From Pelosinus propionicus DSM 13327 (GTDB taxonomy: Bacteria; Bacillota; Negativicutes; DSM-13327): 64,000 bases of DNA. Position 1 is the stretch's first letter, and each line of letters begins with the position of its first letter. The translations under genes were made by a program, and so were the position numbers. The notes under the pieces are model-generated. The model did not search any database, had not been told where the DNA came from, and saw nothing but the letters and a program-made list of their open reading frames with translations. Where the stretch lies: assembly GCF_900114615.1 (NCBI RefSeq), contig NZ_FOTS01000024.1, positions 1 through 64,000 of the forward strand, in the 5' to 3' direction. Shown one piece after another: positions 41,570-54,222 of the stretch.

Positions 41570-43020
41570 TTATATATTCAGATTTATCCCTCGTGCAATT
41601 CTGCTGCCAAGTTCATGATCTACCTGCATAAAATGTTCAATCATTCTCCTTTGAATAGGCTCGTATGCTTGACTTAAATTTTCTACAATATTTGAAACCA
41701 AATGTTTCTTTTCAAGTACCGACATCATTCTATATCTGCAGCCGGCTTGATAATAATCATCACCTGTTATTTCGGATCGAGCCACATTGCCTGTAACAAA
41801 CTCTTCAGGCCGTTTTCCGATCTCGGGTGCCGGCTGAGGCATACCACCTCCTAATGTATTGGGCAAATAGTTAGCAACTCCTTCATTGTACATGGTTTGC
41901 ATGGTTCCATTCTGCATCTTATTGGCAATTGGCTTTCTAGGCATATTCGTGGGAAGTGCTAAATAATTGACTCCCATACGGTATCGTTGCGTATCTCCAT
42001 AAGCAAAAATACGCCCTTGCAGTATTTTATCATTCGAAAAATCGATCCCCGGTACAATGGCCGCAGGAGAGAAGGCGGATTGTTCAACTTCAACAAAAAA
42101 ATTATCAGGATTTTTATTTAGCACCATGATGCCGACTGGCATCAATGGAAATATGTCTTCTGGCCATATATTAGTAGAATCCAATGGATCAAATTGTAGA
42201 TTGCATTCATCTTCTACTTTCAGGATTTGTACACGCATCTCATATTCAACAGCATGCCCTGCAGCAATGGTATCAAACAAATCCCTGCTTGCTATGTCAG
42301 GATCACTGCCAGCAAGTTGAACCGCTGTCTTACTGTCTATGTATGCAACCCCTGCACAGGGTTCCCAATGGTACTTAACATATACTTCGTCGCCCCGTAT
42401 ATTTACCCATTTATAGGTATTAACACCATACCCTTGAATGGTTCTATAGCTTTTGACAGTCCCATTATCCGCAAACAAGTAGGTAAGAAAATTCATAGAT
42501 TCCGGCCTAAGTGACATAAAATCCCAAAAACGACTGGCAGCTATCGGCCCACCTCGGACATTTGCAACTGGATCTGGCTTTAAAGCATGAACTAAATCTG
42601 GAAATTGAATCGGGTCTCTAAGAGGAAACACCGGAATATGGTTGCCAACAATATCATAATTTCCTTCATCTGTATAAAATTTTACGGAGAATCCTCTGAT
42701 ATCCCTCACGGTATCTGCCCCCCCAAAGAGCCTCCTGCTACTGAAAACCTAACAAAAACAGGGGTTTTGTTTTCTGTATCCTGCAGAAAACTCGCCTTCG
42801 TTAATGAGGCCATTGATTTATAGGGTCTAAAAAAACCAAAAGCTCCAGCTCCTTTCGCGTGTAATACTCTTTCTGGAATCCTCTCCCTATCAAAATGAGA
42901 AATTTTTTCGAGGAAAACAATATCCTCAAGTAATATTGGCCCCCATTCACCTACAGTTAATGATTGTTGATCATTAGTAACAGGTGTCCCCTGATTACTG
43001 GTAAGATAACGTTGCTCCAT
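41570..43020 (-). pseudogene. Catalase, frameshifted at a G7 run
   Basis: Two overlapping frames together encode a normal 480-residue small-subunit haem catalase. The first (43020 to about 42706) holds the catalytic His in VLHAKGAG. The second (to 41570) holds DIRGFSVKFYT, the Asn in VGNHIPVF and haem-ligand Tyr in RIFAYGDTQ. The break lies at a run of seven G on the coding strand (plus-strand C at 42718-42724); eight G would restore GGADTVRD. All catalytic residues remain, so this is a recent frameshift, a phase-variable tract or a sequencing error. SD is GGGGAGAG. Confidence 0.85.
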
Positions 43021-43493: not shown

Positions 43494-44141
43494 TTATTTT
43501 GAGGATCTTGCCTTAGCAATCTCTTCTAAGAATTGTTTGGCAGTTGCAGTAATTGCAGCATAATCTCCAGTCTTAGCACCAGCTGTTAAGCTGCTGCCAG
43601 CACCAACTGCCACGCAGCCAGCCTTAATCCATTCTTGAACATTGCTGACACTAACTCCGCCAGTGGGCATGATCTGTGCCTGAGGCAAGGGACCTTTTAT
43701 GGCTTTAACCATTGCGGGACCAAAGAGTTCCCCTGGGAATAGCTTAACAATGTCGCATCCAGCTTCCATGCACTCAACAACTTCTTTTATCGTCATAGCT
43801 CCAGCCATCATTGGAATTTGATAACGATTGCACAAACGTACTGTTTCTTTATTCAGACATGGCGAAACTACATATTGCGCTCCGCTGAGAATGGAAATGC
43901 GAGCTGTTTCAGGATCAAGAACTGTCCCCGCCCCAATAATTAATTCCTCTGGAGCATAGGATTTTGCCAACTCTTCCATAATATGATGAGCATTTGGTAC
44001 CGTAAAAGTCATTTCGATAGCTTTCATACCGCCAGCCAAGCAAGCCTCTGATATCCTCTTAGCCTGATCTCCATTTTCAGCTCTTACCACTGCAACTAAA
44101 CCGGATTTACAAATTTGTTCAAGCACTTGTTGTTTACTCAT
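43494..44141 (-). CDS. eda: KDPG/KHG aldolase
   Basis: A 215-residue TIM-barrel class I aldolase: VVRAEN at the start, GAGTVLDPE, Schiff-base Lys in DIVKLFPGE and MPTGGV. It cleaves 2-keto-3-deoxy-6-phosphogluconate or 4-hydroxy-2-oxoglutarate to pyruvate plus an aldehyde. The ATG at 44141 follows AGGGGAA; a TTG two codons upstream is less likely. It diverges from an RpiR regulator across a 311-base AT-rich control region. Confidence 0.92.
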   Translation of the reverse strand: MSKQQVLEQICKSGLVAVVRAENGDQAKRISEACLAGGMKAIEMTFTVPNAHHIMEELAKSYAPEELIIGAGTVLDPETARISILSGAQYVVSPCLNKETVRLCNRYQIPMMAGAMTIKEVVECMEAGCDIVKLFPGELFGPAMVKAIKGPLPQAQIMPTGGVSVSNVQEWIKAGCVAVGAGSSLTAGAKTGDYAAITATAKQFLEEIAKARSSK

Positions 44142-44387
44142 AATCAATTCCCCTTTTTATTTGCAGCCATCAGCCAAAGCAGCTAGCCACTAGATTTACT
44201 TAGTCAGTAATCATGCAGAGTATTCATTTTCTAATTGATACTCTATTGTCATTTTTTTATTTTTTTTTGACACGATTTTATATTTTATATTTTATTCGAT
44301 TTACTGATAAATTACAATAAACTTTTGACATATTAATATCATTTTGCAGAAAATTTTAGATATTTTTTTGTCATTCATAGCTTAAGC

Positions 44388-44416
44388 TTGCCTAGTTTTT
44401 GCATTATTGTTATAAT
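44388..44416 (+). promoter_or_regulatory. Promoter of the rpiR gene
   Basis: TTGCCT (44388-44393), 17-base spacer and a perfect TATAAT (44411-44416). A TTGCAT...ATGCAA inverted repeat overlaps the -10 box and may be an operator. The rest of 44142-44387 is AT-rich and shows no gene. Confidence 0.65.
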
Positions 44417-44452
44417 GATGCAATAAATTAAATTGAATGTTGAGGAACCACT

Positions 44453-45313
44453 ATGCTTGGAACCAACCAGCCAACACTATGTCTACCCCTTTTGCGTAGC
44501 AGCTTTCAGAGTTTTACTAAATCTGAAAAGCGGGTTGCCAGTTTCATTATTGAACAACCACATGATATTATTCATATGACTATTTCTGATTTAGCGGAAG
44601 CTACAAAGACTGCTGAAGCAACCATTTCACGCTTCTGCCGTAAATTGGGATTTCATGGCCTGCAAAGTTTAAAAATTGCCTTAGCTAGTGAAATACTCAG
44701 CCCTTTGGAAACTACCTATCAGGAAGTACAACCTACTGATTCATTTGAAACGATGGGGATCAAAATATTTAACAGTATTTCAGAGGGTTTACAAGATACC
44801 TTGAAACTACTTGATTTTGATGCATTGCAAAAGGCTGTTGCCATTCTTGCTCATGCCCATAAGATTGATATTTATGGCTTTGGAATTTCAGCAGTGATTG
44901 CCTCTGATATCGAACATCGTTTCATACGTTTTGGCATACCAACAAAAGCCTATTCCGATTTACATATGCAGCTTATTTCAGCGTCCATTTTAGAACCAGA
45001 AGATGTAGTAATCGTCATATCGCACACTGGATCCAATACTGATCTGCTGAATTCGGTGGAAGTGGCAAAGCAAAGCGGGGCCCAAGTCATCGCAATTACC
45101 AGTCACTTAAAATCACCTCTTACGAAAAAAGCTGATCTCGTTCTGCACGGTGTAAGCCGGGAAGTGAATTACTCTTCAGAATCAATGACATCGCGGCTAA
45201 TTCATATGGCCATCGTAGACCTTTTATATATGGGCATGATATTTAAGAACCAGGATACATTCACCAATAATCTTAATAAACTGCGGCTGGCAATTGCTAA
45301 CCGTAAAACATAA
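44453..45313 (+). CDS. MurR/RpiR-family sugar-phosphate-responsive regulator
   Basis: Residues 1-80 are the RpiR helix-turn-helix (TISDLAEATKTAEATISRFCRKLGF). Residues 110-260 are a SIS sugar-phosphate-binding domain (IDIYGFGISAVIASDIEHR, VIVISHTGSNTDLLN). It probably senses a phosphorylated sugar acid and controls the divergent eda gene. GAGGAAC precedes the ATG; a terminator follows. Confidence 0.9.
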   Translation: MLGTNQPTLCLPLLRSSFQSFTKSEKRVASFIIEQPHDIIHMTISDLAEATKTAEATISRFCRKLGFHGLQSLKIALASEILSPLETTYQEVQPTDSFETMGIKIFNSISEGLQDTLKLLDFDALQKAVAILAHAHKIDIYGFGISAVIASDIEHRFIRFGIPTKAYSDLHMQLISASILEPEDVVIVISHTGSNTDLLNSVEVAKQSGAQVIAITSHLKSPLTKKADLVLHGVSREVNYSSESMTSRLIHMAIVDLLYMGMIFKNQDTFTNNLNKLRLAIANRKT

Positions 45314-45401: not shown

Positions 45402-45552
45402 GCTATTGATAATAAATTTTTAAAAAAAGATCGAGTCCATTTCCTTATAAAAAGAAAGCCTAGATAACCTTAAATGATCATCCAGACTACTTTAGAAAAA
45501 TCGTTATTTTTATGAAAGGTATTGTGGTGTTTTTGATATACTTCCTCTTTTA

Positions 45553-46989
45553 TTATTTTGTTAGTAATATTTCCACAACTTCTTTAAGCGTATTCTGCTC
45601 ACCAACATTACCAGGAAAAATAACATAGGGTATCTGGGGAAATTTACTTTCTCCTCCTGTTTGCCATACAGGTATTCCAGGCCTTATCTGACCTAGGACG
45701 TTTGCTCGTTTTACTTTTAACGCCTTCGTTCCAATATCACTGGAAGTGATACCGCCCTTTGCAACCACAAAGCATGGAGTTATGTTCAGTCTGCCAACCA
45801 GAGACTGTACTGCATCTGATATTTTAACAGAACGTTCCAAGGCATCTTCCTTCGAATCATCTTCCAAGGTCAGCAATTTCCTTTTGGTGCAAACAACGAC
45901 TGTAACACCTTGGCTTAACAGATCTTGCTCCTGCTTTAAAACCGATGCGATTTCTTCTTGAAAACGATTTTCTTCAAGAACCAAATCAGAATTGAACTCG
46001 ATAAATCGTATTCCCTCGAGAGTTTTCAATTGCTCAACCTGATTATTTGTTTTTTGCGTATGAGAGCCAACTACAACGATTCCACCATTGCCGCCACCAC
46101 TGGTTATCATCTCTTGTCTTGTCAGAAGCGGTTTATCGGAAATAGCACCTAATTCTTTTATAAATCCAGCAGCGGTGCGAAACACAAAATATTTTCCTTG
46201 AGCAATTGCTCGGTAAAGCGCTACACAAAATATTTTTAGATCATAGGCGTCAATCGCATTAACAACTATTTTTCCAAAAGCTGTTATATTCATGAGTTTA
46301 GCAGTAATCTCATCAATTTTGAGTGCTCGCAGCTCATCAAGGGATATCGTTAATACTTCTTCTTTCTTATAGAACCCCTTTGATTTCTCTTCAATATATT
46401 CCGTCAAATCAGATGACTCATATCCGAATGTTTTATCGTTAGCAAACTCAGTTTCACCAGCCGGAACAAGCCAATCCCCATACTGCACATAATGAATATT
46501 ATCTAACGTAAAACGGCCACCTTCTCTAAAATACGGACAAATAATTTCACCATCAGCCTTTATCCTAGAATAGCACTCCAATTGCTCTTTTAAAATCGTT
46601 GTTTCTAAAGGATAATGACCCCTGAGAGTTGAATCACTACGGCTGACAATCAAATACTTCCACTGCTGCTCTTCGGCAACTTGAGCAATCGTTCTGCCGA
46701 TTTGTCGATGCACTTTTACAGTCTGTTCTTCGGTAAAGCCCCGGGAATTTGTTAAAATATAAAAAATCTTATTTTTTTCTTTAAATCCACGACTAATGCT
46801 TTCATAAGACCAATCTGTATATACTGAAATATCATGAACCGTCTGAATGCCAGTTGGGTCATCATCCAGTACAATTATTTTATGTGGATCATTCTTAATA
46901 GCCTGCTCTAAAAGCATCTGTACGTATTTTTCATCTACCGTGGGATATGATTTTAAAATAGCAGCACTACGCTTTTGCAATGATTTCAT
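45553..46989 (-). CDS. Four-carbon acid-sugar kinase family protein (DUF1537, OtnK/DtnK-like)
   Basis: A 478-residue kinase with the DUF1537 opening LDDDPTGIQTVHD, SRSDSTLRGHYP and the C-terminal nucleotide-binding region (KGGITSSDIG, WQTGGES, FPGNVG). Characterised members phosphorylate D-threonate or D-erythronate. The start at 46989 follows AGGATG; an ATG at 46998 one base past the BKACE stop is the alternative. Classic PdxA2 and OtnC partners are absent; here it accompanies a BKACE enzyme and a KbaY-like aldolase. Confidence 0.88.
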   Translation of the reverse strand: MKSLQKRSAAILKSYPTVDEKYVQMLLEQAIKNDPHKIIVLDDDPTGIQTVHDISVYTDWSYESISRGFKEKNKIFYILTNSRGFTEEQTVKVHRQIGRTIAQVAEEQQWKYLIVSRSDSTLRGHYPLETTILKEQLECYSRIKADGEIICPYFREGGRFTLDNIHYVQYGDWLVPAGETEFANDKTFGYESSDLTEYIEEKSKGFYKKEEVLTISLDELRALKIDEITAKLMNITAFGKIVVNAIDAYDLKIFCVALYRAIAQGKYFVFRTAAGFIKELGAISDKPLLTRQEMITSGGGNGGIVVVGSHTQKTNNQVEQLKTLEGIRFIEFNSDLVLEENRFQEEIASVLKQEQDLLSQGVTVVVCTKRKLLTLEDDSKEDALERSVKISDAVQSLVGRLNITPCFVVAKGGITSSDIGTKALKVKRANVLGQIRPGIPVWQTGGESKFPQIPYVIFPGNVGEQNTLKEVVEILLTK

Positions 46990-46999
46990 CTTCAACATC

Positions 47000-47806
47000 C
47001 TATCTATTTATTGATATATGAAATTGTTGTCTTGCCTCATCCGGACTCATCGGTTCTTTATCCATGGCTCTCAGCAATCGCACCGTCTTTTCTACCAAAG
47101 GAAGATTGGTATCTACCATCGTATTCACATCCAAATAATTGCTGTCTTCAAAACCAATTCGTACGGTACTGGCCCCCATTCCAAGAGCTGCGGCGATAAT
47201 GGAAAAATTCCTCCTATTTGCATGAGTAATTCCCCAAAGAGCCCCGAGCGGAATCATCTGAATCATTGCGGCTAAGGCCTCTGGTGTTGCAGGAGCTTCG
47301 CCTTTATGCCCTAAAACAATACTAAATAGTACAGGACTACAAAAATCATATTGTTCCATAAGTTCTTTCATCGCATAAATATGACCAATTTCAAACACTT
47401 CTACTTCCGGTGTTTTCTTCATCTTCAATAATTCGCGAATACAATATTCTACATCATCAATGGGATTGCAATATACAGCCTTACCCAAATTAGTGGAACC
47501 AACATTCAAGGAACAGGCTTCTACTAGATTTGAATATACAGGAACACAACGTTCCTTAATAGAAAGGTTGGAAACGCCGCCTGTTGACACTTCAATGATA
47601 ATATCGGAATCCCTTCGAATTAGGCGCAATGTTTCTTCCAAAAGACTCATGTCGGTAGTCAGATTCCCATGAGTATCACGTACGTGCAAATGCACCATAG
47701 CAGCCCCTGCCTTCCAACAGTTTAAAACATCTTCAGCTATTTTGTCTGGAACGATTCTTTTATCTGTAGCAGCTACGGGAGCAACTGAAATCATTACTTT
47801 ATTCAT
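47000..47806 (-). CDS. BKACE (DUF849) beta-keto acid cleavage enzyme
   Basis: A 268-residue zinc TIM-barrel protein with HLHVRDTHGNLT, EVSTGG and the E/H-bearing FEIGH and ITHANRR regions. BKACE proteins condense a beta-keto acid with acetyl-CoA to give acetoacetate and a new acyl-CoA. Which beta-keto acid is used here is unknown. AGGAGGT precedes the ATG; the stop lies next to the kinase start, so they are coupled. Confidence 0.9.
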   Translation of the reverse strand: MNKVMISVAPVAATDKRIVPDKIAEDVLNCWKAGAAMVHLHVRDTHGNLTTDMSLLEETLRLIRRDSDIIIEVSTGGVSNLSIKERCVPVYSNLVEACSLNVGSTNLGKAVYCNPIDDVEYCIRELLKMKKTPEVEVFEIGHIYAMKELMEQYDFCSPVLFSIVLGHKGEAPATPEALAAMIQMIPLGALWGITHANRRNFSIIAAALGMGASTVRIGFEDSNYLDVNTMVDTNLPLVEKTVRLLRAMDKEPMSPDEARQQFHISINR

Positions 47807-47849
47807 TTTTTACCTCCTATAACAAAGCCTGCATCAGTAATGCCTGATC

Positions 47850-48689
47850 TCATCGCTGATCAAAAAATGATATGTATTTTCTAACAATATCTTTTACATA
47901 ACGAACCTGATACAAGGACAATTCCGAGAAATGCGGCTGTTGATCGGCTAAAAGTTCCTTTGTCTTATCAACAGCATAAACGGAGATTTCCGTATTGACA
48001 TTGATTTTAGCAATACCTTTGGCAATGCAGCATAAAATATCTTTCTCAGACAGACCCGAACCGCCATGCAGTACCAGCGGTATTGCTAGCAGCTTATTAA
48101 TAGCCTCCAATATATCAATGCGTATATTAGGTTCCGCCTTATACAGTCCATGCACGGTTCCGATCGAAATGGCCAATGCATCAACATGTGTCATGTCAAC
48201 AAACTGCTCCGCTAGAGCTGGATCAGTATAGGCTTCTACATCGGTTGCCGCTCCTTCGTGTGATCGTTCTCCGGCCGCCAAGCATCCCAACTCGCCTTCT
48301 ACTGATACACCGCAAGCATGGGCTATGTCACAGACCAGTTTTGTATTGTTTACGTTTTCGTCAAAGGGCAGTGCCGATCCATCATACATGACCGAACCAA
48401 AACCGGCACGAATGGCACGAAAGACCGTATCTAGATCACTGCAATGATCCAAATGGAGACAAACTGGTAGATCGCTCCTCTCTCCAAGACTTTTAGCAAT
48501 GGCACATGCGGTTTCTAATGACATATTCTTCAGATACTTAGCACCAAAAGCCAGAATTACTGGTGTTTTTGTCTCACATCCTGCGTCAATGATCCCCTTA
48601 AACGTTTCATAATTGTATCCATTAAATGAGCCTACAGCATAATGATTGATATAGGCTTCATTAAGGATGTCTTTAAAATTTACCAACAT
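47850..48689 (-). CDS. Class II fructose-bisphosphate/tagatose-bisphosphate-type aldolase
   Basis: A 279-residue zinc aldolase: HLDHCSD (catalytic Asp and zinc His), GSVMYDGSALPF, a zinc His in SIGTVHGLY and HGGSGLSE, with INVNTE near the C terminus. The family cleaves ketose bisphosphates or related phospho-sugars to DHAP plus an aldehyde. In this operon it may split the phosphorylated product of the DUF1537 kinase; the true substrate is inferred only. Confidence 0.9.
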   Translation of the reverse strand: MLVNFKDILNEAYINHYAVGSFNGYNYETFKGIIDAGCETKTPVILAFGAKYLKNMSLETACAIAKSLGERSDLPVCLHLDHCSDLDTVFRAIRAGFGSVMYDGSALPFDENVNNTKLVCDIAHACGVSVEGELGCLAAGERSHEGAATDVEAYTDPALAEQFVDMTHVDALAISIGTVHGLYKAEPNIRIDILEAINKLLAIPLVLHGGSGLSEKDILCCIAKGIAKINVNTEISVYAVDKTKELLADQQPHFSELSLYQVRYVKDIVRKYISFFDQR

Positions 48690-48766
48690 GATGAATGCCC
48701 CTTAGTTTATGCAATATTGGAGCAAACACGTTCAACGAAGATCGAATTAACAATCTGCGGCATGAT

Positions 48767-49483
48767 CTAAGAGTTTACTTTTTCCCAATATTGATAATGA
48801 TTTTCTACTACTTTGTTGATTTCATTCTTATTTTTTTCCTTTAATACCCGCAACATTTCCTTATGCATCAACAAAAACTGCTCTGTTGCATCTTCGGTTA
48901 AAAACTTTTCTATAGCTTTCATTCTTGATGTTCTAGTAATCTGATCTACATAAAAGCAGATCCCTTCCAATAATGCATTTTGGGTGATGTCTACCAATAC
49001 CATGTGAAAGGCGATATCTGCTTCAAATATATCTTTTGCTTTTACATTGAAAGTTGTAATCTTTGTTTCCAGATCTTTCATGGCCTGCTCAACTTTATAT
49101 AAGGATTCTGAATCCAACTTTTCTATCACCAATTGGAGTATCCCCACATCAATAATTTTGCGCAGTTCTACTATTTGGTTTGCAGAATCCTTTTGCAATA
49201 TAATTCCATATAAAACAGGAAACAACATTTTACTGTCATAATCCTGCGTTACAAAAGTTCCCTCAGCACGTTTGATATTAATAACACCATATGCTCCTAA
49301 TATCTTGATTGCCTCACGAACAGAATTTCTGCCAACCCCCATGGATGCACATAGTTCATTCTCTGTCGGAATCTTATCTCCCGGTTTTAGCTCCCCGTTA
49401 ATAATAGCATTTGTAATATTATCAACAATCTGCTCAACAACAGATTTGCCACCTATCTCTTTTAAAAAAGTTTCATGTGCCAT
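48767..49483 (-). CDS. GntR/FadR-family transcriptional regulator
   Basis: A 238-residue protein with an N-terminal GntR winged helix (IINGELKPGDKIPTENELCASMGVGRNSVREAIKIL) in two parts and a C-terminal FCD domain that binds small carboxylates through metal. It lies in the middle of the catabolic cluster. AGGAGG precedes the ATG. A GTAT...ATAC sequence at 49516-49528 may be its own operator, similar to the palindrome ahead of the racemase-like gene. Confidence 0.9.
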   Translation of the reverse strand: MAHETFLKEIGGKSVVEQIVDNITNAIINGELKPGDKIPTENELCASMGVGRNSVREAIKILGAYGVINIKRAEGTFVTQDYDSKMLFPVLYGIILQKDSANQIVELRKIIDVGILQLVIEKLDSESLYKVEQAMKDLETKITTFNVKAKDIFEADIAFHMVLVDITQNALLEGICFYVDQITRTSRMKAIEKFLTEDATEQFLLMHKEMLRVLKEKNKNEINKVVENHYQYWEKVNS

Positions 49484-49604
49484 ACTGAACCTCCTGATGT
49501 ATTTTTGCTTTTTCAGTATACATCATACGTAGGTTCAAGACAATCATAGACATGATTTGCTAAAGTACTTTCTTAAAAGCGATCAACTGCCATTCAGCGA
49601 TTTT

Positions 49605-50012
49605 TTATAAATTAGCCGCAGCAGCAGCGACTTTGGCAGCAATTTCTCCATCTTCTTTCAGTCCGCCGATACCAACTGCACCGATGATCTGCTGTTGGCC
49701 ATTATAGATCGGCACACCACCAGGCATCCCCACAAATTTATCATCAGCAAAATACGATATATTTAGATTTTCCTGCTGCAACCGCTTCAGAAAATCAGCT
49801 GTACTTACTCCCATTCTTGCAGCAGTATACGCTTTATTAGGTGTAAGGTTAATTGTCAACAATTTGGCCCCATCCTGCTTATTGAACAAAACTAAAAATC
49901 CATCCTTATCACAAATCGCTACACTAAATGGTTTCATCCCATATTCTTGCGCTACGATATCTTCAGCATAACTTCCTATTTTTTTTGCCAATTCCAAGGT
50001 AATATTATCCAA
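49605..50012 (-). CDS. GlcG/HbpS-family protein
   Basis: A small alpha/beta protein (about 135 residues) with the family's MGVSTADFL, GGVPIYNG and GAVGIGG patterns. Members bind haem or corrinoids, or have cofactor-related roles in diol and glycolate catabolism. I propose a TTG start at 50012, nine bases after AAAGGGA, which gives the usual length. The frame remains open back to 50078 inside the BASS gene. Confidence 0.78.
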   Translation of the reverse strand: MDNITLELAKKIGSYAEDIVAQEYGMKPFSVAICDKDGFLVLFNKQDGAKLLTINLTPNKAYTAARMGVSTADFLKRLQQENLNISYFADDKFVGMPGGVPIYNGQQQIIGAVGIGGLKEDGEIAAKVAAAAANL

Positions 50013-50052
50013 TCCAATCAGTCCCTTTCTATTTTGCAGCTTATATATCAAA

Positions 50053-51018
50053 TTACGCTTTGAACAGATTTTCTGCATCTGCTGCTTCTTTTTCTTCTTT
50101 TTCTCGCCAATAATTTGCCAATGTTGGACCAGTAAGATTGTGTATCAGATTAAATATAGCAGCTGGTATGAATGCTAATGGAGCAAGATGTGCTAATGCT
50201 AATGCCATCGCCAGCCCACCGTTTTCCATGCCGATTTCAAAACAAAGAGCCTTGGCCTTAAAATGAGGCATCCCTACACCACGAGCAGCCCAATACCCTG
50301 TTGTAAGACCGAGTATATTGTGCAGGGCTACGGCTACAAAAGCAATCAAAGCAACATTTGCCAGCGAACCCGCACTGAGGGCAAACCCTGAGCTAGTCGT
50401 AACAAAAATGGCGATGACGGAAACAATTGGGATAATCGGCATGATCTTATCAACAAAATCAGAAGCAAACGCCCGAATCACAGCTCCTAAAAATACGGGT
50501 ATCAGAACAATTTTTAATATATCCATTAAAATAGCTTGCGCATCAACTGGAACTATCGTACCAACTAAAAAAACAAACATAAATGGTGTAATAAACGGCG
50601 CAATAATTGTATTAATTGAAGAAACCGTTATCGAAAGCGCTGTATCCCCTTTAGCCAAAAAAGTCATAACATTACTGGCCACTCCGCTCGGGCAGCATCC
50701 TACTAATATGAGCCCCGCAGCCAAGACTGGCGGTAAATCAAGCACTTTCGTCAATGCCAATGCAATAAATGGCATGATCATATAGCGCAAAACAATACCC
50801 CAGAATACATCTTTAGGCCGCGAAAGAACCAGTTTAAAGTCGCCTGCTGATACAGTAAGGCCCATACTCAACATAACAGCCATAATACAATATGGGACAT
50901 ATTTTGATAATGGCTTAAATGGATCAGGATTAAAATATGCTGCAACTACACCCAAAATAATCCATAAAGAAAAATATTTTGTGATAAATTTTACGATTTC
51001 TCCTAATTTTTCTAACAT
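50053..51018 (-). CDS. BASS-family (bile acid:sodium symporter) carboxylate transporter
   Basis: A 321-residue membrane protein with about ten helices and BASS landmarks: GCCPSGVASNVMTFLAKGD (the sodium-site crossover) and FEIGMENGGLAMALA. BASS proteins import organic acids such as pantoate, pyruvate or sulfonated compounds with sodium. It is the only transporter in the cluster and so likely imports its substrate. AAGGAGCG precedes the ATG. A hairpin at 51080-51099 lies in the gap upstream. Confidence 0.9.
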   Translation of the reverse strand: MLEKLGEIVKFITKYFSLWIILGVVAAYFNPDPFKPLSKYVPYCIMAVMLSMGLTVSAGDFKLVLSRPKDVFWGIVLRYMIMPFIALALTKVLDLPPVLAAGLILVGCCPSGVASNVMTFLAKGDTALSITVSSINTIIAPFITPFMFVFLVGTIVPVDAQAILMDILKIVLIPVFLGAVIRAFASDFVDKIMPIIPIVSVIAIFVTTSSGFALSAGSLANVALIAFVAVALHNILGLTTGYWAARGVGMPHFKAKALCFEIGMENGGLAMALALAHLAPLAFIPAAIFNLIHNLTGPTLANYWREKEEKEAADAENLFKA

Positions 51019-51153
51019 TTTCTTCGCTCCTTCTCGATTTAATGCAAAACTTTTATCATCAATAACCAGAAATCCGTCCCCGTCTATTCATGTAGACGGC
51101 CTTTCTTTTTTGGATAAATTCATTGTAAGAAGCTGACTAGAGGAATGTAAAAG

Positions 51154-51831
51154 CTATTGTTGGATCAAACCGTGTTTTTCCAAAGCGCATTTAAGTGCCA
51201 CCGCACCGAATCTTGGGCTGGACAAAACCAATTTCCCAGTTTTGTGATGAATATATTCTTCACAATATGCCATAGAACCTTGGGCAAACAATATTACATC
51301 AACTTTGTCACGAATTTCTCCAGCATATTGGGACATCAATTCTTTGAATTGTTCTTGATCAAGTCCAAAACCTCCGTCAACCAAAACATCAACTAATTCT
51401 ACACGCTTATTCATCTCTCGTGCTACCCGCATTATGGTATTCTTCGTTGGGATCAATGTTGTCGGCAGAGTAGCCATGACACCGATACGCATACCTTGCC
51501 TTACCGCCTCTCGACACATTTCCTCATCAATACGCAGGATTGGAATACCAGTAAACCTAGCAACATCCTGAGCGGAATCAGCTACCTCACCTACTGATGA
51601 ACAAATATTAAGAATAGCATCAGCACCATCACTTACAGCTTTCATATACATGCCGACAAGTCTAGCCGCTGGAGGAGCTGTAACATATCCAGCATCTCTC
51701 ACCTCTGCAAGAATCGACGGATCCTGATTACTGATAAATTCAGTATCTTTGGGAAGTGATTGGCGAACTTCTTTTTCCACCAGCTCAATCAATTCTGGTG
51801 TAGTACTCGTATAAATCAAAGCTACTTTCAT
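51154..51831 (-). CDS. Asp/Glu/hydantoin racemase-family protein
   Basis: A 225-residue protein of the racemase/maleate isomerase/arylmalonate decarboxylase superfamily. One half-site Cys is in NICSSVGE (near residue 80); the second position carries FAQGSMAYCEE (near 180). It could racemise, isomerise or decarboxylate a small carboxylate. It is the first gene of the run leading to the BASS transporter, with a palindromic operator directly upstream. AAGGGGG precedes the ATG. Confidence 0.82.
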   Translation of the reverse strand: MKVALIYTSTTPELIELVEKEVRQSLPKDTEFISNQDPSILAEVRDAGYVTAPPAARLVGMYMKAVSDGADAILNICSSVGEVADSAQDVARFTGIPILRIDEEMCREAVRQGMRIGVMATLPTTLIPTKNTIMRVAREMNKRVELVDVLVDGGFGLDQEQFKELMSQYAGEIRDKVDVILFAQGSMAYCEEYIHHKTGKLVLSSPRFGAVALKCALEKHGLIQQ

Positions 51832-51850
51832 TTAAAATCCCCCTTTATTT

Positions 51851-51871
51851 GTAGTATGTACTACATACTAC
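51851..51871 (-). promoter_or_regulatory. Perfect palindrome ahead of the racemase-like gene
   Basis: GTAGTATGTA, a central C and TACATACTAC form a perfect odd palindrome 20 bases upstream of the start codon, where a repressor would block transcription. The cluster's GntR protein is the natural candidate. Confidence 0.6.
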
Positions 51872-52056
51872 GTCCTACGTTTAGTCGCAATCATATTATT
51901 ACATATTATTACATATTTTTATTTAATTGTAAATATGAATTATTTAAAATATTACAACTATTAAGCAAATAATTAATTCCTGCAAGTTCTCTTAATCGAG
52001 TTCTTACAGGAATTGATTACCATCGGCAGTGGCAGAGCAAGCCTACAGAGCTATTC

Positions 52057-54165
52057 TTATGCCAAGGTTCGAACAGACTTCTCCCGGTTCCATTGGCGTG
52101 TCTTTGCAGCTGCAATAAATGCATCTTTGTCATTGGCATCCATGACACCCACATCTTGTCCAACATTAGCGTTTTTTAAAAGAGCTTGGCCGCCTTTATC
52201 GACGGCAATAGCCTTGAGATGACCAAAAGCATCGCGCACAAAATCAATTGCGGCGCTTTCCATTGATAGTGCTTTTACACCTTCGTCAGAGAGAATAACT
52301 GCGACTGCATCAAATAACACCGAAGGGGAACCAGCTAGTTGTCCCTCAGCAGTCAGTTTAAGACCACCTGCAAGCTTCACCTCTCCCACATTTGGGGAGA
52401 TAATCTTCACAGCAGCGCCAGCATCTGTCACCGCCTTTCTAATCTGTTCGATTACAGCTCCATCTGAGCCATTCGCGATCAGTATACCGATCGTGCGCCC
52501 TTTGAGCATGTCTTTCATCTTGCCGATGATTTGCAATGCGGGCGAGGGCTTCATCTCTTGTACAGCTATGGCAGCCGCTGGTGCATCAGGAAGTTTATCG
52601 ATCCCAAGGCCCCTGGCAACTCGCTTGGCAAGAGCTTCTTCGATATGTCGCAAGTGACCTACTATCGCATCACGCACGTGAACATGTTCAACCTTGGAAA
52701 GCTCAAATACTAGAGCCGAGGCGATGTGTGCTTGCTCATATGTTGTTTGGCTGATATAGAACATTCGCGCTTGACTGTAGTGATCAGCAAAACTTGCAGC
52801 ACGGATACGGCCCTTTTCTCCTGTTTCGGTTACCGCAGTGCTATGAAATCCGTAGGTCGGGGTCTCCCGGGGTGATTCAGCAGACAAGGAATTAGGCTCA
52901 TATGCAACTCGTCCCATAGGTTGCTCCATCTGCATCTGTCCATCACGTTGGTGGTTAGCGAAGGGACATTTGGGAGCATTGATCAGGATCTGGTGAAAAT
53001 TCGGCGTCCCCAGCCGAGAAAGTTGTGTGTCATGATAGGAAAATAAACGGCCTTGCAACAGCGGATCATTTGAGAAATCGATGCCTGGCACGAGATGAGA
53101 AGGACAGTAAGCAACCTGTTCCGTTTCGGCAAAGAAATTATTCGGCCAACGATCTAGTACCATGCGTCCGATTACTTTCAATGGCACTAATTCTTCCGGA
53201 ATCAGCTTAGTAGGATCCAGATGATCGAAGGGAAATTTATCCGCTTCTTCCTGGGTGAAAAGCTGTACTGCAAATTCCCACTCTGGGAAATTACCTGAGG
53301 TGATGGCATCGAACATATCGCGGCGATGAAAGTCTTGATCTGCACCAGAAATCTTGACTGCCTCATCCCAAATGGTGGACTGCAATCCGAGTTTAGGACG
53401 CCAATGGAATTTAACGAAAGTTGATTCACCTAACTGGTTAATCAACCGAAAACTATGTACACCAAAACCTTCGATCATCCGCAGAGAACGCGGTATTGTA
53501 CGATCAGACATAATCCACATTACCATATGCATGGATTCAGGGGTGAGTGAAATAAAATCCCAGAATGTGTCATGGGCGGTTGCCGATTGGGGAAAACCGC
53601 GATCTGGTTCCATTTTTACAGCATGGATGAGATCAGGGAATTTAATAGCATCCTGAATGAAAAAAACCGGAATATTATTGCCGACCAGATCCCAATTGCC
53701 TTCCTTTGTATAAAACTTGACAGCAAATCCACGTACATCTCGAGGGGTATCTACCGAACCTGCGCCACCTGCTACCGTAGACATACGAGTAAAAACAGGT
53801 GTTTTTTCCCCCACCTCTGTGAGTATCTTGGCAGTGGTGTATTGCTTTAATGAAGCAGTCAACTCGAAGAATCCATGTACACCTGTACCCCGCGCGTGAA
53901 CAACACGTTCAGGAATACGCTCGTGATCAAAATGTGTAATTTTCTCTCTAAGAATGAAATCCTCCCCCAGAGTAGGGCCACTGGGATTGGCTCTGAGTGA
54001 GTTTTGATTATCTGAAAGTGCAACGCCTTGATTAGTCGTAAGCACAGGATGCTGTCCACCAGCACTTTGGTGCAGCTCGCCGCCAACAGCCACTTGTGAA
54101 TCTTCACTTAAAGTTGAGTCCTTTTCCTTTGTAAGTCTTGCCGAATTATCCGTTGTTTTGTCCAT
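52057..54165 (-). CDS. katE: Large-subunit (clade II) catalase
   Basis: A 702-residue haem catalase: catalytic His in [13 protein letters not shown], Asn in VGNNIPVFF, haem Tyr in [14 protein letters not shown], and a C-terminal glutaminase/DJ-1-like domain (about 560-702, containing [14 protein letters not shown]) typical of the HPII type. It breaks down hydrogen peroxide. The ATG at 54165 follows AAGGAGATACATC. It is intact, unlike the small catalase at 41.6-43 kb. A forespore-type promoter match lies about 60 bases upstream. A weak hairpin at about 51973-52015 may end it. Confidence 0.95.
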
Positions 54166-54222
54166 GATGTATCTCCTTCCTATATCCATATCTAGTAAGA
54201 GTACGCCCCTCATCCTTAAGAT

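Follow-up and report, generated by a model that had tools for sequence, protein, structure and literature searches.

A seven-gene cluster in Pelosinus propionicus

The DNA analysed here, referred to throughout as the window, is a stretch of 64,000 nucleotides from the soil-type Firmicute Pelosinus propionicus DSM 13327 (contig NZ_FOTS01000024.1, positions 1 to 64,000), and it carries a cluster of seven complete, co-directed open reading frames (ORFs) on the minus strand at 45553-51831. The cluster combines a DUF1537 acid-sugar kinase with a protein of the beta-keto acid cleavage enzyme (BKACE) fold, a racemase-like protein, an aldolase, a putative organic-acid importer and a GntR-type regulator. 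ORF and domain matches bear out the seven genes and the domain assignments of the initial annotation of this region. The genes and the associated signals are as follows.

45553-46998, minus strand: DUF1537 acid-sugar kinase, core gene (SBD_N 159 bits, NBD_C 121 bits)
47000-47806, minus strand: BKACE-fold protein, core gene (PF05853, 209 bits [208.9])
47850-48689, minus strand: class II (zinc) aldolase of the FBA/KbaY type, accessory (F_bP_aldolase, PF01116, 279 bits)
48767-49483, minus strand: GntR-FCD regulator (domain matches)
49605-50078, minus strand: GlcG/HbpS-like protein with no assigned role (domain match)
50053-51018, minus strand: BASS-family putative organic-acid importer (closest NCBIfam model PanS, 277 bits, under the cut-off of 400)
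51154-51831, minus strand: racemase-like protein of 225 aa, core gene (Asp/Glu-racemase fold PF01177, domain match)
51852-51870, no strand: perfect palindrome TAGTATGTAGTACATACTA, candidate GntR operator, conserved in relatives
51905-51933, minus strand: sigma-70-like promoter TTTACA-17-AATAAT with TG before the second hexamer (consensus match only)
45457-45488, minus strand: possible intrinsic terminator past the kinase gene (consensus match only)

The BKACE and kinase genes are separated by 1 bp, the aldolase and BKACE genes by ~43 bp, and the GntR and aldolase genes by 77 bp, with wider gaps at the GlcG/GntR (~121 bp) and racemase/BASS (~135 bp) junctions. The GlcG/HbpS-like ORF probably has its true start about 20 codons further in, because its relatives measure 135-141 aa. 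PanS, the closest model to the importer, is a ketopantoate/pantoate transporter. The seven genes include neither a sugar-acid dehydrogenase (OtnD, LtnD or PdxA2) nor microcompartment shell genes.

The palindrome is a probable GntR operator. It has no other occurrence in the genome at 0 mismatches, and nine relatives have a copy, not always a perfect one, 18-44 bp ahead of the racemase-like gene; the end coordinate of the initial annotation, 51871, takes it in. Promoter-type consensus matches across the region are no more frequent than in shuffles, and in an operator-based regulon search of the genome further matches did not rise above control and gave no extra regulon genes. The short gaps, the shared strand and the single upstream promoter-like site with its conserved palindrome fit a single predicted transcription unit under the GntR protein. 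The operon-like unit proposed originally is also consistent with the conservation of the seven-gene order in about ten Negativicutes, described below.

A conserved core with variable transporters and aldolases

The cluster recurs in other genomes. A scan of 84,980 species genomes for the BKACE-like family returned 80 loci (L-numbers are the labels for compared loci in this analysis), and the identical seven-gene set and order was found in Pelosinus, Sporomusa and other Negativicutes (L044, L045, L047, L052 and L040-L043). Gene order is preserved in about ten Negativicutes, where identity of the BKACE-like protein is 78-94%; the remaining BKACE paralogs of the window genome share ~35% identity or less with the cluster protein. 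The recurrence of the same genes in the same order argues that the cluster is no chance grouping.

The genes for the racemase-like protein, the BKACE-like protein and the kinase recur together in Sporomusaceae, Lachnospiraceae and other lineages and constitute a conserved core around which the transporter and the aldolase vary. The transporter is of the BASS type with GlcG in Negativicutes, of the TRAP type in Enterocloster and others, and a sugar ABC system in rumen Lachnospiraceae. The aldolase position is taken by the FBA type in the window group, by a PF00596 type in microcompartment loci and by a small cupin in Enterocloster. The aldolase that the initial annotation counted in the set is present in the window cluster, but it is not part of the core and the FBA type is absent from most relatives; its zinc motifs HLDH (HxDH), H180 and H208, together with GGSG, are invariant in 8/8 sequences. 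The GntR-FCD regulator is also found in TRAP, microcompartment and some loci linked to carbohydrate-active enzymes, and the GlcG/HbpS-like protein also adjoins BKACE in L101 (56% identity). In several loci (L064, L069, L076, L081 and L085) the core runs on into genes for an aldolase, an acylating aldehyde dehydrogenase, an EutM-like shell protein and PduL, and L069 closes with an iron alcohol dehydrogenase. Loci of Enterocloster, Succinivibrionaceae and Sporomusaceae carry acid importers and no glycosidases for rhamnogalacturonan-II (RG-II).

Association of the core with rhamnogalacturonan-II glycosidases

RG-II, a component of pectin, is a highly complex plant glycan, and bacterial enzymes that release aceric acid from it are known. 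Aceric acid (3-C-carboxy-5-deoxy-L-xylose) is a branched acid sugar of RG-II side chain B, and to our knowledge this rare sugar is restricted to RG-II. Core loci with sugar ABC transporters carry genes of glycoside hydrolase families GH127, GH78, GH140 (apiosidase) and GH42. The core-linked apiosidase is closest to 3kzs/5msy. The core-linked GH127 has its best PDB match in 5mqo (507-521 bits), with the next GH127 structure at 308-328 bits, and against the core-linked query the remaining GH127 paralogs of these genomes score no higher than ~294 bits. We take 5mqo to be BT1003. BT1003 has been described as an aceric acid hydrolase (PMC5698469; PMC10850190).

A survey of 397 Lachnospiraceae genomes found the BKACE-like gene in 21 and a BT1003-like GH127 in 18, with both genes in 16, the BKACE-like gene alone in 5, GH127 alone in 2 and neither in 374 (Fisher p = 2e-22, a value that overstates the evidence, the genomes being related and not independent). 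In 13 of 17 BKACE-like/GH127 pairs the two genes are no more than 20 kb apart on one contig; both genes are present twice in one genome, where each pair is linked. Strong apiosidase matches occur in 28 genomes, of which 15 have GH127 and 13 do not; 14 of the former carry the BKACE-like gene, compared with 1 of the latter (p = 5e-6). Once GH127 is known, the apiosidase adds no predictive value for the BKACE-like gene. Because of this conditional test, the core is seen to track the putative aceric acid hydrolase and not apiose release. The kinase is present in 51 of the 397 genomes, compared with only 21 for the BKACE-like gene, and was dropped as a specific marker of the cluster.

In Hungatella hathewayi WAL-18680 (L128 followed by L064), glycosidases through microcompartment genes form one same-strand run: GH78, GH127 and GH42, then an ABC transporter, GH140, a cupin, the kinase, the racemase-like gene, a TRAP transporter, GntR and BKACE, followed by a class II aldolase, an acylating aldehyde dehydrogenase, microcompartment shell genes and PduL. 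L057, which lies in the window's half of the BKACE tree, carries GH127 and GH78 in its locus, and its proteins are 66% (BKACE-like), 76% (racemase-like) and 61% (kinase) identical to those of the window.

Two further gene groups were observed in these surroundings. One is a 420-aa glycosidase of GH63/MGH1-like type (L084:7075-8334 and orthologs) that has no relative in the PDB; it recurs beside the core and is a candidate enzyme for one of the side-chain-B linkages of RG-II still to be assigned. In L079, L080 and L097, and in part in L075 and L077, an FGGY kinase, a split transketolase and an AGE-like isomerase lie beside RG-II glycosidases and the core, and this set is a probable apiose branch.

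Replacement of the kinase step in related loci

The kinase motifs DDxTG (D45-G50) and KGGIT/SSD (K414-D421) are invariant in 42/42 sequences. Against the curated NCBIfam models the window kinase scores 30.6 bits for OtnK (cut-off 350) and 61.5 bits for DtnK (cut-off 450), and no match to OiaK was obtained at E<=0.001. Curated names were rejected, all models being far under cut-off, and by these comparisons the kinase is a branch outside the curated OtnK, DtnK and OiaK families. A sequence search found no PDB relatives of either the kinase or the racemase-like protein.

In three loci (L058, L059 and L101) OtnK, OtnC and OtnI stand in place of the kinase and share an operon with the racemase-like and BKACE-like genes; the OtnK of L059 scores 544 bits against the cut-off of 350. 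The suggestion that BKACE substitutes for PdxA2 or OtnC does not agree with this arrangement; because the genes share an operon, the BKACE-like protein would act upstream of OtnK, OtnC and OtnI. The same kinase clade is represented in at least 13 further Lachnospiraceae genomes, where its partner is a GarR/LtnD-type beta-hydroxyacid dehydrogenase and not the racemase-like and BKACE-like pair, and in the tree these kinases form a branch nested inside the BKACE-linked ones. The OtnK/OtnC/OtnI swap and the dehydrogenase swap converge on a 3-oxo four-carbon acid, the likely substrate of the kinase.

The dehydrogenase-paired kinases (L131-L139, L141, L142, L147 and L150) often have as neighbours another DUF1537 protein, similar to D-threonate kinase, together with PdxA and a GntP permease, and the loci look like an uncharacterised tetronate-type cluster in Lachnospiraceae.

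A proposed route for L-aceric acid

The reading that we favour, with somewhat more confidence than doubt, is that the seven genes form an operon for the breakdown of L-aceric acid to dihydroxyacetone phosphate (DHAP), CO2 and acetaldehyde via 3-oxotetronate; we infer both the substrate and the order of the steps from gene association. Free aceric acid would be imported by the BASS protein here, and by TRAP or sugar ABC transporters in plant-feeding relatives, and since the molecule is a sugar and an acid from the outset no dehydrogenase step would be required. The racemase-like and BKACE-like enzymes would jointly convert the aldose to the ketose, on paper 2-C-(1-hydroxyethyl)-3-oxotetronate, a beta-keto acid that would suit the BKACE zinc site, and would then cleave this ketose in retro-aldol fashion, releasing acetaldehyde and 3-oxotetronate. 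The DUF1537 kinase would phosphorylate the C4 hydroxyl to give 3-oxotetronate 4-phosphate, and loss of CO2, helped by the class II aldolase or an OtnC-type enzyme or occurring spontaneously, would give DHAP. Acetaldehyde would pass to an acylating aldehyde dehydrogenase, within a microcompartment in some Lachnospiraceae. A retro-aldol route from the ketose of aceric acid would explain both the absence of a dehydrogenase and the presence of acetaldehyde-type microcompartment enzymes. Several elements of the initial annotation are retained in this proposal, namely an imported sugar acid, for which branching is very plausible given the structure of aceric acid, its predicted phosphorylation by the DUF1537 kinase, and a putative DHAP-type product. 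A literature search limited to openly licensed papers found no published pathway for aceric acid catabolism.

A number of observations weigh against an aceric acid operon. The PDB file of 5mqo names the protein a beta-L-arabinofuranosidase; 5 of the 21 BKACE-positive Lachnospiraceae genomes are without GH127, and the relatedness of the surveyed genomes means that the Fisher p exaggerates the strength of the association. The window genome was searched for a BT1003-like GH127 and has none, and we infer the substrate of the window copy by orthology alone; because of this absence, the window strain may import acid released by other bacteria, or may use a related acid. The core enzymes include no recognised aldose-ketose isomerase, and we know of no case in which the PF01177 fold carries out aldose-ketose isomerisation. 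The favoured order would require the FBA-type aldolase to work as a decarboxylase, an unusual role for it, and clusters with the kinase only show that this enzyme is not specific to aceric acid.

The main rival keeps aceric acid as the substrate and gives the same net products in a different order, and we regard it as possible although less probable. The ketose would be phosphorylated first and then decarboxylated, by the BKACE-like enzyme or by the racemase-like enzyme in the manner of arylmalonate decarboxylase, before the class II aldolase splits 5-deoxypentulose 1-phosphate into DHAP and acetaldehyde. This order lets the FBA-type and the microcompartment PF00596 aldolases keep their normal DHAP-plus-aldehyde reaction; a beta-keto acid substrate fits both the BKACE and the racemase folds, and housekeeping rhamnulose/fuculose aldolases could cover loci without an aldolase of their own. 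However, it leaves unexplained both the replacement of the kinase by OtnK, OtnC and OtnI and the pairing of the kinase clade with a GarR/LtnD-type dehydrogenase, the two swaps on which the aceric acid route through 3-oxotetronate draws.

It is unlikely that the substrate is instead a tetronate or other small hydroxy acid, with the RG-II neighbours reflecting a different RG-II sugar or a general clustering of plant-glycan genes. The loci with acid importers and without RG-II glycosidases (Enterocloster, Succinivibrionaceae and Sporomusaceae) would be accommodated by such a substrate, as would the occurrence of the kinase clade in threonate-type clusters, but the association with the BT1003-like GH127, and not the apiosidase, is tight and conditional, the GH127 linkage is found on both sides of the BKACE tree, and the aldehyde-handling enzymes of the microcompartment loci indicate that an aldehyde is formed, which is not expected from a tetronate. 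Another RG-II acid, 3-deoxy-lyxo-heptulosaric acid (Dha), a possible source of 3-oxotetronate, was considered and is not favoured; the neighbouring glycosidases match side chain B, and the enzymes of the microcompartment loci require acetaldehyde or a similar aldehyde.

The BKACE-like and racemase-like proteins

A maximum-likelihood tree of 108 BKACE rows sets 66 of them, the core family, apart from the canonical BKACEs in these genomes. The zinc ligands H39, H41 and E220 and the catalytic residues R216, D221 and S74 are invariant in the core family; the 66 members examined have a shorter N-terminal substrate loop than canonical BKACEs and other residues in place of the V-x-G-G and A-G-I-G-R motifs, and these altered elements presumably line the CoA site. 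An AlphaFold2 model (pLDDT 95) is a TIM barrel with TM 0.86-0.92 to Kce and other BKACEs, and matches cis-epoxysuccinate hydrolase (5zmu) less well, at ~22% identity. Curated names were rejected here as well, every model being far under cut-off.

Because the loop is shortened and the canonical motifs are replaced, classical acetyl-CoA-dependent cleavage is doubtful. The acyl-CoA products predicted initially are neither needed nor supported, though the zinc site and the Asp and Arg residues are kept. The reading of the protein as a genuine beta-keto acid cleavage enzyme that depends on acetyl-CoA and yields acyl-CoA would agree with the PF05853 fold, the zinc ligands and the retained Arg, Asp and Ser, but we consider it improbable given these replacements, a core that conserves no acyl-CoA-using partner gene, and a fold that includes a hydrolase, cis-epoxysuccinate hydrolase.

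The racemase-like protein has the canonical cysteine C77 and C106 invariant, and the usual position of the second catalytic cysteine reads AQGSM. Its fold is closest to allantoin, hydantoin and glutamate racemases, and arylmalonate decarboxylase matches too. We propose tentatively, and with more doubt than confidence, that the BKACE fold has turned sugar-acid isomerase or retro-aldolase with a PF01177-fold partner, in a dehydrogenase-free route that feeds 3-oxotetronate to the DUF1537 kinase and acetaldehyde to a microcompartment.

Distant BKACE-like relatives (~40% identity) lie near sugar-isomerase-type and FGGY-kinase genes; in L105, L107, L109, L110, L116, L119 and L121 (Spirochaetes and Desulfobacterota-type) these are xylose-isomerase-like TIM barrels, lyxose-isomerase-like cupins and FGGY kinases. 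This suggests that the whole BKACE-like superclade may act on sugars.

Comparison with known pathways

The best reading of the putative aceric acid operon is as a new combination of known folds among the DUF1537-type acid-sugar pathways. With the OtnK/OtnC/OtnI and DtnK/PdxA2 pathways it has in common the DUF1537 kinase, a likely DHAP end product and a likely 3-oxo acid as the kinase substrate, and it differs from them in having no dehydrogenase and in placing a racemase-like and BKACE-like pair upstream. In the D-apiose/apionate pathways, OiaK is a DUF1537 kinase that acts on a 2-C-substituted 3-oxotetronate, and the source is again a branched sugar derived from RG-II; the cluster differs in its proposed sugar, in lacking a dehydrogenase or oxidoisomerase and a RuBisCO-like protein, and in following GH127 and not apiosidase. 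Apiose or an apionate-derived acid is a most improbable substrate for the cluster, since, although an apiosidase is adjacent in L064, L067 and L070 and OiaK acts on a similar branched 3-oxo acid, only one of the 13 apiosidase genomes without GH127 has the cluster, the core has no dehydrogenase to turn apiose into an acid, some loci hold a separate FGGY kinase and split transketolase set able to serve apiose, and the kinase is not OiaK-like at E<=0.001.

The BKACE-like protein shares the TIM barrel, zinc ligands and catalytic Arg and Asp with the 3-keto-5-aminohexanoate cleavage enzyme and other BKACEs (2y7d, 8rip), from which it is set apart by its shorter N-terminal loop, replaced motifs and sugar-acid gene context. 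Cis-epoxysuccinate hydrolase has the BKACE fold and a CoA-free reaction on a C4 acid, although this reaction is a different one. The GH127 family of the Bacteroides RG-II system with BT1003 adjoins the core in Lachnospiraceae; the papers cited above for BT1003 cover depolymerisation.

PVM-like bacterial microcompartments have been proposed to serve rhamnose/fucose-type substrates. The loci in which the core runs into microcompartment genes share with these systems the class II aldolase, acylating aldehyde dehydrogenase, PduL and shell, which are absent from the window, and differ in that the run starts with RG-II glycosidases and the core. Hungatella hathewayi is among the named carriers of such microcompartments (PMC8156839). 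The cargo of some of them may be acetaldehyde derived from aceric acid and not rhamnose or fucose products.

If the proposed route is correct, it would be the first for the aceric acid of RG-II and would assign a substrate to a widespread uncharacterised BKACE/racemase/kinase set, suggest what PVM-like microcompartments carry as cargo in gut Clostridia, and imply likely new catalytic functions for two large enzyme folds (BKACE and PF01177). It would also imply cross-feeding on released aceric acid by bacteria without the glycosidases, such as Enterocloster and Sporomusa.

Neighbouring genes and a distant locus

Directly downstream of the cluster, a KDPG/KHG aldolase gene is divergent from that of an RpiR-type regulator (43494-45313). 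This pair was rejected as part of the pathway, because no locus other than the window and the Pelosinus locus L044 has it next to the cluster. A distant kinase (L143, G188:C44:12500-27000) is accompanied by racemase-like, TIM-barrel, AGE-like isomerase, FBA-type aldolase and FGGY kinase genes, and no BKACE gene. Within 41570-43020 of the window, two adjacent minus-strand ORFs (42706-43020 and 41570-42709) overlap by 4 bases in different frames and look like one catalase gene broken by a frameshift; a longer, intact catalase-like gene is located at 52057-54213.

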